The notes beneath the pieces were generated by a model. That model was not told the origin of the DNA and did no database searches. It saw only the letters and a list, made by a program, of their open reading frames with translations. From positions 124,001-188,000 of the forward strand of contig QFXC01000011.1 in NCBI GenBank assembly GCA_003349885.1: 64,000 nucleotides of DNA. Reading direction: 5' to 3'. Both the position numbers and the translations under genes were made by a program. The stretch comes from an endosymbiont of Galathealinum brachiosum. Its GTDB lineage: Bacteria > Pseudomonadota > Gammaproteobacteria > SZUA-229. Shown here piece by piece: positions 9,855 through 41,087 of this stretch (the first letter of the stretch is position 1; each line of letters begins with the position of its first letter).

Positions 9855-10802
9855 TTAAGGTGATTCACCAGCCAATTGTCTATTTAGTTCAATGCGCCTG
9901 CGTAACCAGCTGCTTGCAATGGCTGCGGTTAATATACACCAGACGGCAAACAAGGCCCCGGGAAGTGCCGATTCAGCGGGAAAGTGTTTAAGCGCCAATG
10001 CCACCCCCATCCCCGCATTTTGCATTCCTAACTCTATCATCAGGGTAATTCTGTATAAATGCGCAAAACCGTATAACTTTGCCAGCCACCAGCCAATAAG
10101 ATAACCGAGTAAATTGACTGCAACGACTCCCACCATAACAGGTAATGCCATCTGTGCGATACGTAACTGGTTTGCCGCTACTGCATAACTACATATGATA
10201 ATAATAGCTAATGCTGCAACTCCTGGAGCAATATCTCTGGCCGTCTGCAAGTGTTTGCCCAGACGTTTTTGAATCAACAGCCCAAATAAGAGTGGCAATA
10301 AAACAGTTTTAACAATAGTGATTGTCAATGGCCAGAATTCCACCGGCATAATTGCACCGCCCAGATATTTCACCAGCAACGGCGTCAATACAGGTGACAT
10401 TAATGTAGCAACAGTGGTCAGTGTTACTGAAAATGCCACTGCACCGCCTGCCAGATAAACAATCACATTACTGGCCATCGCACCCGGTGCACAACCCACG
10501 ATTATAAATCCAATTGCAATTGCGGGACTAAAGCCCGGATATTGAGCCACCAGCCAGACCAGTACGGGCATTACGCTAAACTGGCTCAATACACCTAGAG
10601 CGACGCGCCCGGGCTGCACTATTTCAGCCTTTAAGTCAGAGGCCTCAATAACCAGTCCCAGTGAAAACATAGTGGCTGCAAAAAACCATAAAAAATAGTC
10701 TTTAAAAATAAGGAATATCGGGGGATAGATATAAGCTATTACTGCACCTGCAAATGTCAGCAGGGCCAGGTGACTGGCAAAAACACTGAAAACCTTTTTC
10801 AT
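9855..10802 (-). CDS. Bile acid:sodium symporter (BASS) family transporter
   Basis: A 315-residue protein with about ten hydrophobic segments and the BASS features GCAPGAMASNVIVYLAGG and ELGMQNAGMGVALALKHFP. Family members import organic anions or small acids (bile acids, pyruvate, pantoate) with Na+, in the inner membrane; the substrate here cannot be inferred. It lies in the same direction as the cysteine-rich peptide gene, but a terminator hairpin lies between them, so it probably has its own promoter. Confidence 0.85.
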   Translation of the reverse strand: MKKVFSVFASHLALLTFAGAVIAYIYPPIFLIFKDYFLWFFAATMFSLGLVIEASDLKAEIVQPGRVALGVLSQFSVMPVLVWLVAQYPGFSPAIAIGFIIVGCAPGAMASNVIVYLAGGAVAFSVTLTTVATLMSPVLTPLLVKYLGGAIMPVEFWPLTITIVKTVLLPLLFGLLIQKRLGKHLQTARDIAPGVAALAIIIICSYAVAANQLRIAQMALPVMVGVVAVNLLGYLIGWWLAKLYGFAHLYRITLMIELGMQNAGMGVALALKHFPAESALPGALFAVWCILTAAIASSWLRRRIELNRQLAGESP

Positions 10803-10864: not shown

Positions 10865-10891
10865 AAAAAAGCCGGATCAAATCCGGCCTTT
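10865..10891 (-). terminator. Intrinsic terminator after the EGKCG peptide gene
   Basis: On the minus strand GCCGGAT pairs with ATCCGGC across a three-base loop, extended by flanking AAAAG/CTTTT pairs and followed by a T tract. It is about 20 bases past the stop of the cysteine-repeat peptide gene. Confidence 0.85.
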
Positions 10892-10912
10892 TCACTTTAA
10901 GCTATGAAGGGT

Positions 10913-11170
10913 TTAGCTACCACCGCATTTACCTTCGCCACATTTACCTTCTTTCTTTTTGTCACCACCACACTTGCCTTCACCACATTTTCCATCTTTC
11001 TTTTTATCACCACCACCGCACTTGCCTTCACCACATTTCGAAGATGACATGGAAACTTTAGATGACTGATCTATGTCAGACATACCAAATGGATTTTCAG
11101 CTGCCTGTACAGACATTGATAAAGAAGCAGCAAATAAAGCAGCTAGTGCAATTGAGATTATTTTTTTCAT
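10913..11170 (-). CDS. Secreted Cys-repeat peptide with EGKCG motifs, HvfA-like RiPP precursor
   Basis: An 85-residue protein: signal peptide (about residues 1-23, cleaved after VQA), a short linker (ENPFGMSDIDQSSKVSMSSS), then three tandem units of KCGEGKCGG separated by DKKK-type spacers. In all there are six KCG motifs, four of them EGKCG and one DGKCG. This pattern is that of HvfA-type precursors, in which a MNIO (DUF692) enzyme and partner convert the motif cysteines to oxazolone/thioamide groups that bind copper. That assignment is by motif similarity. No DUF692 or HvfC-like gene is adjacent or elsewhere in the window, so the precursor is orphaned here. A good GGAG ribosome site and its own terminator suggest strong monocistronic expression. 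Confidence 0.8.
   Translation of the reverse strand: MKKIISIALAALFAASLSMSVQAAENPFGMSDIDQSSKVSMSSSKCGEGKCGGGDKKKDGKCGEGKCGGDKKKEGKCGEGKCGGS
10917..11040 (-). repeat. In-gene tandem repeats encoding KCGEGKCGG units
   Basis: Three imperfect tandem DNA units of about 40 bases encode the KCGEGKCGG-DKKK blocks. The units vary at synonymous and spacer positions, for example GGGDKKKD versus GGDKKKE, so copy number has probably changed by unit duplication. Confidence 0.8.
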
Positions 11171-11352
11171 GATATTACTCCAAAAGAGGGTTTTAAAATT
11201 ACGCCATTATTGGCCCGGGCACCTCTTGTTAATACTGGTTGGGGCACCCTGATTTTCATGCAACTAGCCTAATAGACCAATAACACATAAAATATTAGAG
11301 CCGAAAATACACAGGGGGTTCATAAAAAGTTATCACGAATTGTTAACATTTC

Positions 11353-11838
11353 TCATTTAACACTCTTCAGCCCTAATTTAATCGCTTCTATCACCTTATT
11401 TTCAATTTCCTGTAATACCGGTTTTGCCTGACTAAACTCGCCAATAACAGTCGGCCGTGCAAATACAACGGTTGTCTCTCCTGCTTTTTCATACAAGCTC
11501 AGGCGCAATGGGCATAAAGCCAACATATCCGGATCAACGTTACTTACTTTATTAGCATACCAGCCATTGCAGAAAACCATACTACGAATACTTTCCAGCT
11601 TATTCTGATTATAACTATCACCCCATTTCCCGGCAAAACGTTCAATGTTTTTGCTTATATATGGTTCAAAAACCACATAAAACCTGGCTTCTTCCAGAGA
11701 TTCATATACGGCTTTATATACTTTTTCCATTGATAAACTAACTGTTTGTTTATAGATATTTGTTTCCCCTGCCTGCACATTAAGATTCACAAACAAAGCC
11801 ATAAAAACAAAAAAAACTATTTTGAAATTTTTAATCAT
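11353..11838 (-). CDS. Secreted DUF302-like protein
   Basis: About 161 residues from an ATG preceded by GGGAGAAAT; the longer open frame overlaps the hemB start and is unlikely to be used. It has a signal peptide (MIKNFKIVFFVFMALF, cleaved after VQA) and a DUF302-like body (MEKVYKAVYESLEEARFYVVFE, CPLRLSLYEKAGETTVVFARP). DUF302 proteins are small alpha/beta domains of unknown function, often found near thiol or metal genes. The gene is divergent from hemB and shares the strand of the EGKCG peptide gene, with 182 bases between them. Confidence 0.65.
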   Translation of the reverse strand: MIKNFKIVFFVFMALFVNLNVQAGETNIYKQTVSLSMEKVYKAVYESLEEARFYVVFEPYISKNIERFAGKWGDSYNQNKLESIRSMVFCNGWYANKVSNVDPDMLALCPLRLSLYEKAGETTVVFARPTVIGEFSQAKPVLQEIENKVIEAIKLGLKSVK

Positions 11839-11842
11839 ATGA

Positions 11843-12901
<1,059 letters not shown>

Positions 12902-36071: not shown

Positions 36072-39000
36072 TTAACGACTTAATAATTGATTAAGACCAG
36101 AATATTTTTCAGTTACATTCTGATTAATCATAGTCGCTTCATCAAACTTTAATCGCGCATCATTCAATTGTCCTAACTGATAATATGACATTGCCATATT
36201 AACTTTAACTCCCGGATCATTAGCAGCCAACTGCTCTGCAAAGCTATATGTCTCAATAGCCTGATCAAATTCACCTTTTGAATAAAAGATATTGCCACGA
36301 TTATTATGCACCGCACTATTATCCGGGCTCTTTTTAAGAATTTCATCAAATGTTTTATCTGCTTGCGTATATAACCCATTCTTGGCATATATGATTGCCA
36401 CCTGCATCAAAGCATTAGTATCTTGCGGGTTCAACATTGCTATAACTTCATATGGCTTAATCAGTCGATCCAGACTTTTTTGCATTAAAATATTTTGCTC
36501 TCTATTGACCAGCGGTTTCACCTTCTCTTCACCGGGCACTTTAATTGTATAACTTGCAGGCCTTAATGTAACAGGAAGAAATTCCTTCCAGGCATTTTCC
36601 AGCAGAATAGCATTCAAGGATTTTTCATTCTCAAATTTATAATATTTCCGAGCACCTTCTGCCCAGGCTTCAGCAAATGATGTGCCTATCATTGTTGCTT
36701 CCAGAGGGATCCATATATTCCCATTATGCTCGACCATCAGACTATCCTGTAAACTAATACGATCTTTTTCGGCGACACTAAACCCTGAATCAAACATCAT
36801 TAACAGATGCCCTGGCACATCGAGTATCGCTGTTTTAACGCCGAGATTTTCCAGTCCTGCACTCATCAGAACAGATAAGTCATCACAGTCTCCGCTTTTA
36901 ATTTTCAATGTTTCCCTACTAAACTGCACATAATCGACTCGATCATTATTAACCTGAGAATAAGGACTATTAGGATCAACAACATACCGTATTCCGTGAG
37001 CACTATATACATCAAACAAAGTCATTGCCGTAACAATATTGTCACTCAATGGCCCTGATTCTGGTTTATTCTCATTTATAGCCTGTCGAACAAAATCACG
37101 CAAAGTATCATCCTTAGGCGTTACAAAAGAACCAACCATATTAGAATTTGACCAGATAATTGCATTTTTCCCATATATCGTCATAGGTTGAGTTAATTTT
37201 ATATCATCATCTTTACCATCACGAACAAAGCTCAATGCCACTTCAACCTGCACACCTGTATCTTCATCTATTTCAAGAATCTTATTATTAAATGATGCCA
37301 ATAAATCAAATTCCTGAGTCTCATTTGCCGCTAGATTTGGAATTTCTTTTGTCGTTGGAAAATCCATATAACCTTTAATAGAAAAAGTAAGCTTCAAGTT
37401 GCCGTAGTCTGTACCACTGGTATTTTGAATGCGTATTTGTCCAACAGGTTTATTTACATATTGTTTATAAGTCGCTGAAAATATCTGATTCAGCTTTAAA
37501 TCTTTTAAAACAATCTGTGGCGCATTTGATTTAAATTCTAATGATTTTTTCTTTTCCGCATAAGCCTTATCTAATAACAGTTTATTATCAGCGCTCGGCT
37601 CAAGCGATATCGCTTTATCATACGACGCTATTGATTCGTCAAATAATCTTCGTTTTAAAAACAAACTGCCCAGCAAAACATGAGGTTTATATGAACTAGC
37701 ATCCAGAATTACAGCTTTTTCTAATTCAACCCTGGCCTTATCAAATAAATTGTTTTCACTATACAGGCCACCTAATGACAATGTCAGATCTAATGAATTA
37801 GGCTGTTTATCCATGGCCTTTTTCATATACTCTATTGATTTACCAATTTTTCCCTGTTTATTTGAAGCTTCAGATAACATTACTAATGGCTCAATTTCAT
37901 CGGGTTTTAAATTACTTGCTTTTTCGGCCTGTACATTAGCCTGATTATAATCAGCCGTTTCAAATAACGCTTTCGCCAGTTTTATCCTTGCCTGATAGTT
38001 ATCAGGTTTTGACTCAACTGATTTTTTAAATATATCGACCGCTGAATCAAACTGTTTTTCTTTTAACTCCAGCTCACCCAGTCTCATCGAAGCATTAAAC
38101 ATAATCGGATCTGCTTTAACTGCCATTTCAAGAGTAGGACGTAATTTTTCATCTTTTCCCATTGCCACATACACATCAGCTAGCGCCAACCAGGCAGCTG
38201 AGTGATGTTTATCTATTCTGGTTGATTTCATCAATGACAACAAAGCCTCACCGTTAGAACCTTCAGCAAAAGCCACAAGCCCCAGCAAATACAAACCCAC
38301 CGCTGCCGTTTCATCTTTTCCAGCCAGTGATAAAGATATTGTTTTTACTTGTAAAAATTCTTTTTTATCCAGATAAGATTTGGCTAGCGACAACTGTGCC
38401 GCAAGATGATTTTTATTTAAAGATACAGCTTTTTTAAATCGCTCTATAGCTTCATCTGTTTTACCCAGTTCGCGCATTATTAATCCGCTGCGATACCACA
38501 CGTCTGCATTGTCCGGCTCAATTGATGCTGCCTTGTCATACTCTTCCAGGCCTTTTTCAATAATATCCAATTTTACGTATGCATCACCCATCAAAAAATG
38601 AGCCTGTATACTTTTATCATTTCGAAGCAATGCTTCTTCCAGACAGGTAACCGCTCCAATAGGATCGCCTAACTTAAGACTAAGCTCTCCACAATAAATA
38701 TACGTATTATTTTCAGCTGTTTTTTCCTCTATGACCTTATCTATAATTGCTTTAGCTGATATATAATCCTCGGCAGCCACCAGTGCTTTTATTTGTAAAT
38801 TCAAGCCCTGATTCTCATATTCTTTTATATTTGATAACTCTCGAAACGCCAGAACTGCTGATTCAATATTATTTAATTCAAGCAAACTTAAACCTAAATA
38901 TTTTAACATTTCTGGCTGTTCAATATTTTCGGTTATAGCGGGCTTGAATATTTCGACAACCTTTTCAAACTTATTATTCTGAAAAAGATTAAACCCTTTA

Positions 39001-41087
39001 ATGAAAATATCTTCTTCTATTCGAGAAAACTTACCCTGAGAACCAAGACCAGTGAAAGCGTTTATTTTATAAAATGATTTAGCTGCATTCTTCGAATGCT
39101 CAATTATTGCTTTATTCTCATAAACCTGAGCAACAAACTCATAATTCCCACTTTCTTCTTCTGCACCGTAAACGTTATAACCTTTAATAAATGTTCCGGG
39201 GACAGCAGTCCAGCTAACATGTGTTTCTTTTATACTGCCAACCACTGTTAATCCGGCCACTTTAGCTGGCACCTGCAAGTAACTAAAATTCAATAAACGT
39301 TTCTTTTCTTCATCATAAATTCCAACTAGCGTACGCTTTGATTTTGCTACACTTATATTTCTTGGCTCTTCCATTCCTGCATCAGACTCCAGCTTTGATG
39401 CAAAAGATATTATTTTTTTAGGCCCATTGAAAAGCTGTATTGAGTATTGATTATTTTCAGTTCCACATAATACATACAAATTATTGTCTGCATCTATTGC
39501 CAAATCATAGATTTTATTAAAGGGTGAACTTTTGTCTTCTTCGCCTCCTATAGAATATAGATGATCATGCTGCTTTGAGAAAACGTGCAGCTGTTTTTTC
39601 ATTTTATCAGCTACAAATATATTTCCCTGTGCATCGACCACAACAGCTACAGGCTCAGAAAATATTTGTTTGCCATTACCTTTAGGGTTTTCGATTTTAT
39701 CCAGATATATTCCATCAGCAGAATAAATTTGTATTCGACCATTCCCAGTATCGGCAACATATATTTTATCATGCCGTGAATACACTGATTGTGGCGAACT
39801 TAACTTACCCGCTCCAGATCCTTCTCCTGCATAACCCTTTCCTTCAAATTTTTTGACTCCGTCTTTATCATATATTTTTATTCTTCCCCCATCCAGAATG
39901 ACAATTTTATTATCACTAACTGATGCAGCTCGCGGGTTATCTAATTTAGCCAGTTTTTTTATAAATTTACTTTTTGCTGAAAATATACTGGCATTTTCTC
40001 TATCACGATTTAGACAAAGCGCATTCCCATCATCCAATCTATATGCACGATCACATTTCATTTTAATCGGCAAATACCGAGTCACAGTAGGCAATCTAAT
40101 TTGTTCTTCTACAATTCGATTAAGTGATGGGATTTTATATATTTCGATTTTTTTATTTTCACTATCAGCAACAGCTACACGCCCATCACTTAATACTAGC
40201 AATGATGAAATCTTATTAAACTGGCCTCGTTCTTCTCCCTTGCTCCCAAAGCCATTTAGTTTTTTTTCTTTCTCCCAGTCTATCTGATAAACACGTCCAT
40301 TATCTGAATCAGCCAGATATATTAAACCCGTTTCATCAATCGCCATGGCGGTAATTCTTAATTCACCGTCTACTATTTTTTTAAGCGACTTATGATTCAG
40401 TCGTTTAATTAGACTCCCATCATAATTAAATATAGAAAACTGGCCTTCTTCAGTTGCCTCAAACACATATATTCTTTCTTTACTATCGACAAAAATCTGT
40501 GTTGGGCGTTTTAAACGCATATCCTCTTTCAAACCTTTCTTGCCAAAAGTTGAAAGAAAAACGCCATCAGCACCAAATACTGAAATACGGTTATTGTCAC
40601 TATCTGCAATATAAATACGTCTATTACTTGAATATGCAATGCCTTTAGGATCAGACACTTCTCCCGCACTGCTACCACTTTCTCCCATACGTGTAACCAG
40701 TTCACCATCAGGAGTAATTATCACAAACTGGTTGTCACTTATATTAGTTACTGCGAGCATATCTTCACCCGCCAGACTTAAACCACCCAACCTTTCTGAG
40801 CTAAATATATTTTTTGAACCGGTTAAAGATTTATAAATAACACCCTGCTCTGTGAACTGAATTAATTGACCTTGATTAGCATCTGCAGCGGCTATAGTGC
40901 CATCTCTTAATTGCACCATACCGACAATATTACCGAATGACTTGCCTGATTCTGGCTTATAACTTTTATCAAGACTGATCGCAGCCTGAGAAACACTAAC
41001 TATAAATAGATACAGCGGTACAACTAAAAATATACCTGGAATTCTATTTTTGGTATTTTTATTCAATTTACAACCTGATAACATCAT
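36072..41087 (-). CDS. Giant secreted NHL / Fn3 / TPR / transglutaminase-like protein
   Basis: 1671 residues with a signal peptide (about 1-36). Repeated strands typical of NHL or six-bladed beta-propellers run to about residue 620 (for example DPKGIAYSSNRRIYIADSDNNRISVF, in outline). An Fn3-like domain lies near 625-700, about 14 TPR-type repeats near 705-1200, and a beta-rich linker to about 1320. A transglutaminase-like core near 1380-1430 has GDCDDLSVLMSAGLE and DVPGHLLMMFD, giving plausible Cys, Asp and His positions. More TPRs follow to the C terminus. AAGGA precedes the paired ATG start. The enzyme activity, protease or crosslinker, is not known. Confidence 0.8.
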   Translation of the reverse strand: MMLSGCKLNKNTKNRIPGIFLVVPLYLFIVSVSQAAISLDKSYKPESGKSFGNIVGMVQLRDGTIAAADANQGQLIQFTEQGVIYKSLTGSKNIFSSERLGGLSLAGEDMLAVTNISDNQFVIITPDGELVTRMGESGSSAGEVSDPKGIAYSSNRRIYIADSDNNRISVFGADGVFLSTFGKKGLKEDMRLKRPTQIFVDSKERIYVFEATEEGQFSIFNYDGSLIKRLNHKSLKKIVDGELRITAMAIDETGLIYLADSDNGRVYQIDWEKEKKLNGFGSKGEERGQFNKISSLLVLSDGRVAVADSENKKIEIYKIPSLNRIVEEQIRLPTVTRYLPIKMKCDRAYRLDDGNALCLNRDRENASIFSAKSKFIKKLAKLDNPRAASVSDNKIVILDGGRIKIYDKDGVKKFEGKGYAGEGSGAGKLSSPQSVYSRHDKIYVADTGNGRIQIYSADGIYLDKIENPKGNGKQIFSEPVAVVVDAQGNIFVADKMKKQLHVFSKQHDHLYSIGGEEDKSSPFNKIYDLAIDADNNLYVLCGTENNQYSIQLFNGPKKIISFASKLESDAGMEEPRNISVAKSKRTLVGIYDEEKKRLLNFSYLQVPAKVAGLTVVGSIKETHVSWTAVPGTFIKGYNVYGAEEESGNYEFVAQVYENKAIIEHSKNAAKSFYKINAFTGLGSQGKFSRIEEDIFIKGFNLFQNNKFEKVVEIFKPAITENIEQPEMLKYLGLSLLELNNIESAVLAFRELSNIKEYENQGLNLQIKALVAAEDYISAKAIIDKVIEEKTAENNTYIYCGELSLKLGDPIGAVTCLEEALLRNDKSIQAHFLMGDAYVKLDIIEKGLEEYDKAASIEPDNADVWYRSGLIMRELGKTDEAIERFKKAVSLNKNHLAAQLSLAKSYLDKKEFLQVKTISLSLAGKDETAAVGLYLLGLVAFAEGSNGEALLSLMKSTRIDKHHSAAWLALADVYVAMGKDEKLRPTLEMAVKADPIMFNASMRLGELELKEKQFDSAVDIFKKSVESKPDNYQARIKLAKALFETADYNQANVQAEKASNLKPDEIEPLVMLSEASNKQGKIGKSIEYMKKAMDKQPNSLDLTLSLGGLYSENNLFDKARVELEKAVILDASSYKPHVLLGSLFLKRRLFDESIASYDKAISLEPSADNKLLLDKAYAEKKKSLEFKSNAPQIVLKDLKLNQIFSATYKQYVNKPVGQIRIQNTSGTDYGNLKLTFSIKGYMDFPTTKEIPNLAANETQEFDLLASFNNKILEIDEDTGVQVEVALSFVRDGKDDDIKLTQPMTIYGKNAIIWSNSNMVGSFVTPKDDTLRDFVRQAINENKPESGPLSDNIVTAMTLFDVYSAHGIRYVVDPNSPYSQVNNDRVDYVQFSRETLKIKSGDCDDLSVLMSAGLENLGVKTAILDVPGHLLMMFDSGFSVAEKDRISLQDSLMVEHNGNIWIPLEATMIGTSFAEAWAEGARKYYKFENEKSLNAILLENAWKEFLPVTLRPASYTIKVPGEEKVKPLVNREQNILMQKSLDRLIKPYEVIAMLNPQDTNALMQVAIIYAKNGLYTQADKTFDEILKKSPDNSAVHNNRGNIFYSKGEFDQAIETYSFAEQLAANDPGVKVNMAMSYYQLGQLNDARLKFDEATMINQNVTEKYSGLNQLLSR

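Follow-up and report, generated by a model that had tools for sequence, protein, structure and literature searches.

A small gene in the window (the whole stretch of 64,000 nucleotides analysed here, from the genome of an endosymbiont of Galathealinum brachiosum, G000) encodes, to judge from its sequence, a secreted Cys-rich peptide of a known copper-binding family. In this organism the peptide is very probably not an MNIO-matured RiPP. As the lineage has lost the maturase but keeps the peptide genes under selection, the peptide probably works unmodified, as a secreted metal buffer acting through plain cysteine thiols, in a lineage which has lost both HvfB and HvfC. EGKCG precursors without an MNIO are already known, having been recorded in 67 of 2583 assembled genomes in a 2025 survey (PMC12452194, Table 3), which left undecided whether such peptides act unmodified or are dead. 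The state described here is the same as that of those MNIO-less Buf_EGKCG/oxazolin precursors. What is new is that the loss is genus-wide and is placed at a syntenic operon, that two precursor loci have been dissected, and that a selection test favors a retained function.

The Window Gene and Its Product

The open reading frame at 10913-11170 on the minus strand, with an ATG start and 85 amino acids, is a real gene. Its product reads MKKIISIALAALFAASLSMSVQA up to the cleavage site, which was placed by eye, and AENPFGMSDIDQSSKVSMSSSKCGEGKCGGGDKKKDGKCGEGKCGGDKKKEGKCGEGKCGGS after it. The protein passes the NCBIfam model NF050137 (KCGExKCG_twice, "HvfA family") with 48.1 bits against a cut-off of 19.5 and does not reach the HvfA equivalog model NF050188 (39.5 bits, cut-off 95); by the first of these models it is assigned to the secreted peptides of the HvfA family (EGKCG, "oxazolin/captophorin"). 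The sequence-only reading had proposed an HvfA-like secreted precursor with a triplicate of KCGEGKCGG separated by lysine spacers, a strong ribosome site, and a private terminator, and each of these elements holds (Table 1). The signal peptide was recognized by eye from the KK, the hydrophobic stretch, and the site between VQA and AE. Together the three blocks make up a tandem array (10919-11038, TRF score 177). Two terminator-like sites occur in the 751-base region, where shuffled sequence would lead one to expect 0.3, and the terminator of the gene recurs in the sister species G001, where the stem foot shows a paired change, from GCCGGAT/ATCCGGC in the window to ACCGGAT/TTCCGGT.

Table 1: Features of the precursor locus in the window.
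Feature	Position	Strand	Basis and remarks
HvfA-family precursor peptide gene, locus B	10913..11170	-	85 aa; G001 ortholog 81% identical
Sec-type signal peptide, residues 1-23, putative cleavage between VQA and AE	11102..11170	-	sequence, by eye
NPFGM motif near start of mature peptide	11081..11095	-	sequence comparison with relatives
Core: three KCGEGKCGG blocks, lysine spacers, six Cys	10916..11038	-	TRF array and NF050137 match
Ribosome binding site GGAG, 7 nt before ATG	11178..11181	-	sequence; GGAGTAATATCATG also in G001
Intrinsic terminator (hairpin and T run)	10865..10893	-	terminator scan; conserved in G001
DUF302 protein, secreted-looking, conserved upstream neighbor of locus B	11353..11931	-	PF03625
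SBF-family transporter, downstream neighbor beyond terminator	9855..10802	-	PF01758

The DUF302 neighbor is syntenic in G001, G007, G009, G014, G019, G038, G041, and G047, and the SBF transporter is found downstream also in G001, G007, and G009. An AlphaFold model of the peptide is disordered (mean pLDDT 48) and was of no use. Elsewhere in the window, a protein of 1671 amino acids with NHL and many TPR repeats is encoded at 36072-41087.

Absence of the Maturation Enzymes

The G000 assembly comprises 3.77 Mb in 14 contigs and is 99.5% complete. The MNIO family to which HvfB belongs (PF05114, DUF692) was not found anywhere in this genome, either with the Pfam model, which gave matches in 55 of the 77 genomes searched, or with a profile of 14 HvfB sequences. 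PF09836 (HvfC/PME1) was likewise not found in the whole genome; a weak HvfC-like profile match at G000:C11:230597-230752 contains four stops in 52 codons and no open reading frame and was dismissed as noise. The earlier remark that no DUF692 or HvfC-type gene lies near the precursor is thus true for the entire genome, which had been named as the place to search, also for DoxX/HvfD-like genes. A DoxX-like HvfX (NF050144) is indeed present on C13, with 222 bits against a cut-off of 80, and adjoins not the window gene but a second HvfA-family gene, whose product has 132 amino acids and six repeats. The order there is the 132-aa precursor, a glutamate-synthase-like FMN protein, and then HvfX. Because a genome of such completeness contains neither an MNIO nor HvfC/PME1, maturation of the window peptide in trans is very unlikely. 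The sequence-only reading had held that a genome without DUF692 together with an unmodified peptide would refute the RiPP reading, and G000 is such a genome without DUF692. Its own alternative, a peptide that works unmodified, is the better reading for G000.

Two Precursor Loci across the Bacterial Family

Precursor neighborhoods were read in some 40 genomes of the same bacterial family, which keeps two precursor loci, A and B. Locus A is flanked by Nth-DUF1841 on one side and by a small ORF-TetR block on the other; its usual order is HvfA-(GltS)-HvfX-HvfB-HvfC, as for example in G005, G019, G024, G048, and, without GltS, G009. HvfB and HvfC are gone from locus A, with the flanks present, in the window's genus (G000, G001, G003, and G004) and also in G006, G008, G013, and G025, the last with the downstream flank only, as its contig begins at the precursor. 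In all of these genomes the locus was assembled through the HvfB-less junction, and a search of the locus-A gaps for relics of hvfB or hvfC found none. HvfB occurs at another locus in G006, and G007 retains the precursor-GltS-HvfX part of locus A in a genome without MNIO.

Locus B, to which the window gene belongs, has the order HemB-DUF302-HvfA-(SBF)-GGDEF, and no MNIO stands beside it in any genome read, HvfB-containing ones included. In G009, G014, G019, G038, G041, and G047, HvfB is encoded elsewhere in the genome, and where HvfB survives it is plausible that the locus-B peptide would be modified in trans by the locus-A enzyme. The idea that enzymes encoded elsewhere serve several precursors accords with the HvfB-bearing relatives and fails for G000.

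Two members of locus A deserve separate mention. The glutamate-synthase-like FMN protein (PF01645, about 500 aa) regularly belongs to the hvf operons of this family (L084:10684-12168 and locus A of many relatives), is present in L006, L008, L019, L021, and L036 as well, and goes unmentioned in the 2025 MNIO survey, to judge from a search of its text for "glutamate synthase". At the 3′ end, an open reading frame of 78 amino acids (L084:13166-13402) has no Pfam or NCBIfam match and is conserved in G000, G001, G006, G009, G013, and G025, with or without HvfB.

Among the family genomes with a completeness of 90% or more, counting G000, the precursor is present in 23 of 23, and five (G000, G003, G004, G007, and G008) have no MNIO; G003 carries 6% contamination. 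Other families of the class yielded a precursor in 8/28 sampled genomes, all 8 with an MNIO. Within the window's genus, PF05114 is absent from G003 and G004 (90% and 99% complete), and the only MNIO set of G001 is of the bufferin type, BufA-BufB-BufC. The spread over all members suggests that the loss of HvfB preceded the split of the genus, which would then have diverged without HvfB. Several independent losses are not claimed: the tree of flanking genes needs three changes under parsimony, yet the data do not reject a single loss (p-AU 0.22).

A parallel case is found in the Colwelliaceae isolates L033, L052, and L083, which have a precursor of this kind in genomes containing neither PF05114 nor PF09836. 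There the precursors are long, with regular KCGEGKCGE, and lie beside a tRNA-dihydrouridine-synthase-like gene. BufB-type MNIOs are present in the genomes of the related L023 and L068 and of L081, the last with a second, unclassified MNIO.

A Possible Replacement Enzyme

It is unlikely that a non-MNIO enzyme modifies the peptide, for example the FMN glutamate-synthase-like protein retained with the second precursor and HvfX. The precursor-GltS-HvfX set is kept without HvfB in G000, G001, G004, and G007, and a dN/dS of 0.03 inside the genus shows constraint on the flavoprotein. However, the flavoprotein is missing from locus A in the HvfB-less G003, G006, G008, G013, and G025 and accompanies HvfB in many relatives, and it therefore has the look of an accessory protein more than of a substitute. 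The sole YcaO of G000, a lone reading frame of 590 amino acids, is unlinked on another contig and was rejected as a candidate. That such an enzyme, possibly the flavoprotein with HvfX, took over the EGKCG peptides, so that an old precursor would undergo a new RiPP chemistry, is also unlikely.

Selection on the Precursors after the Loss

The precursors remain under purifying selection after the loss of HvfB and HvfC. Between the window gene and its G001 ortholog dN/dS is about 0.15 (bootstrap 0.05-0.30), and all six aligned Cys codons are kept. Homogenisation among the repeats could lower dN/dS within them, but the leader would be free of this effect. For the leader of the window gene by itself the ratio is 0.35, with a broad interval of 0.15-0.86, and for the locus-A leader (signal peptide and NPFGM) it is 0.04-0.17 between genus members. 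HvfX and the flavoprotein are constrained as well, at about 0.03-0.04 for G000 versus G001. For the Colwelliaceae precursors of L033 and L083 the ratio is 0.20.

Constraint is uneven. The locus-B peptide of G007, a genome that also lacks HvfB, is degraded, with few Cys and poor motifs, and the locus-A peptide of G001 is reduced to three Cys. Of all Cys, the fraction standing in the exact [ED]GKC[GS] context is 0.60 in HvfB-less and 0.75 in HvfB-containing genomes. These fewer or altered repeats would suit precursors that are relics on their way out after the loss of the maturase. Against such decay stand dN/dS values well below 1 at high dS, the intact frames, ribosome site, and terminator, the Cys kept in both G000 precursors (6 in the window precursor and 12 in the second), and a mean Cys number equal to that of HvfB-containing genomes (6.7 versus 6.6), so that a relic is improbable. 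The G007 locus-B peptide (L154:2900-3292) reads KCMGGG, KCSGSG, and KCSGSK, a decay that sets it apart from the orthologs in the window's genus.

A difference between leader elements was also observed. In HvfB-containing genomes LxxGYxxA usually comes after NPF; in HvfB-less ones GY is mostly missing and NPF stays, and the window peptide has NPFGM without LxxGYxxA. GY against HvfB status gave 35/9 versus 3/12 in f1 (Fisher test, p 7e-5, all HvfB-less genomes grouped, G001 included) and 45/2 versus 3/4 in a wider set (p 0.0015), counts in which the rows are related and G009 locus A and the genus g12 are exceptions. For these reasons the motif is kept as a lead only. Hypothetically, GY may serve HvfBC, and NPFGM something that outlives HvfBC. 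In vitro, on a shortened substrate, FonBC coped with each of the single Ala substitutions in front of the core (PMC13097082), which also argues against one essential residue.

A Probable Plain-Thiol Peptide and Its Meaning

An MNIO that escaped detection, in an assembly gap or on a plasmid, and acts on the peptide in trans is very improbable: G000 is in 14 contigs and short of full completeness, and relatives with HvfB plausibly serve locus B in this way, but HvfB-HvfC is absent from several independent assemblies of the genus, with locus A assembled across the junction.

In the favored reading, an unmodified peptide, Sec would export the product and the signal peptide would be removed. The mature peptide of 62 residues would use its six free cysteine thiols to bind Cu(I) or a different soft metal and act as a periplasmic metal buffer, possibly with the help of HvfX at the membrane. 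Reduced thiols are fragile in the periplasm, which counts against this reading, as does the uneven Cys constraint at G007 locus B and G001 locus A.

The captophorins comprise oxazolin (HvfABC-HvfX, Haemophilus influenzae) and fontiphorin (FonABC) (PMC13419390, PMC13097082). Like them, the present system has EGKCG motifs in pairs with lysines, a signal peptide that by eye is of the Sec type, and an HvfX-type DoxX gene in the genome, HvfX being a frequent but dispensable component of such systems, whereas HvfB and HvfC are missing genome-wide from G000, so that thiooxazole formation by the known route is not expected. The "oxazolone/thioamide" conversion assumed in the sequence-only reading is itself outdated, since the HvfBC products have been reassigned as 5-thiooxazoles, each Cys losing 4 Da (PMC13097082, PMC13419390). 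Bufferins (BufA-BufB-BufC, DUF2282), present in the congener G001, are likewise copper peptides that are secreted, rich in Cys, and processed by an MNIO, but they differ in precursor and MNIO subfamily, and the window's genome has no MNIO.

Annotating such genes as "oxazolone/thioamide-modified" can be wrong. The clade bears on the question of why copper peptides of the HvfA family carry thiooxazoles at all. It could also help to tell the parts of the precursor that serve the enzyme, perhaps the GY leader element, which tends to go, from those that serve the peptide, perhaps NPFGM and the Cys residues, which stay. Without a maturase and with its precursors under selection, it represents a natural knock-out in which a possible function of the plain-thiol peptide in its own right is directly testable.
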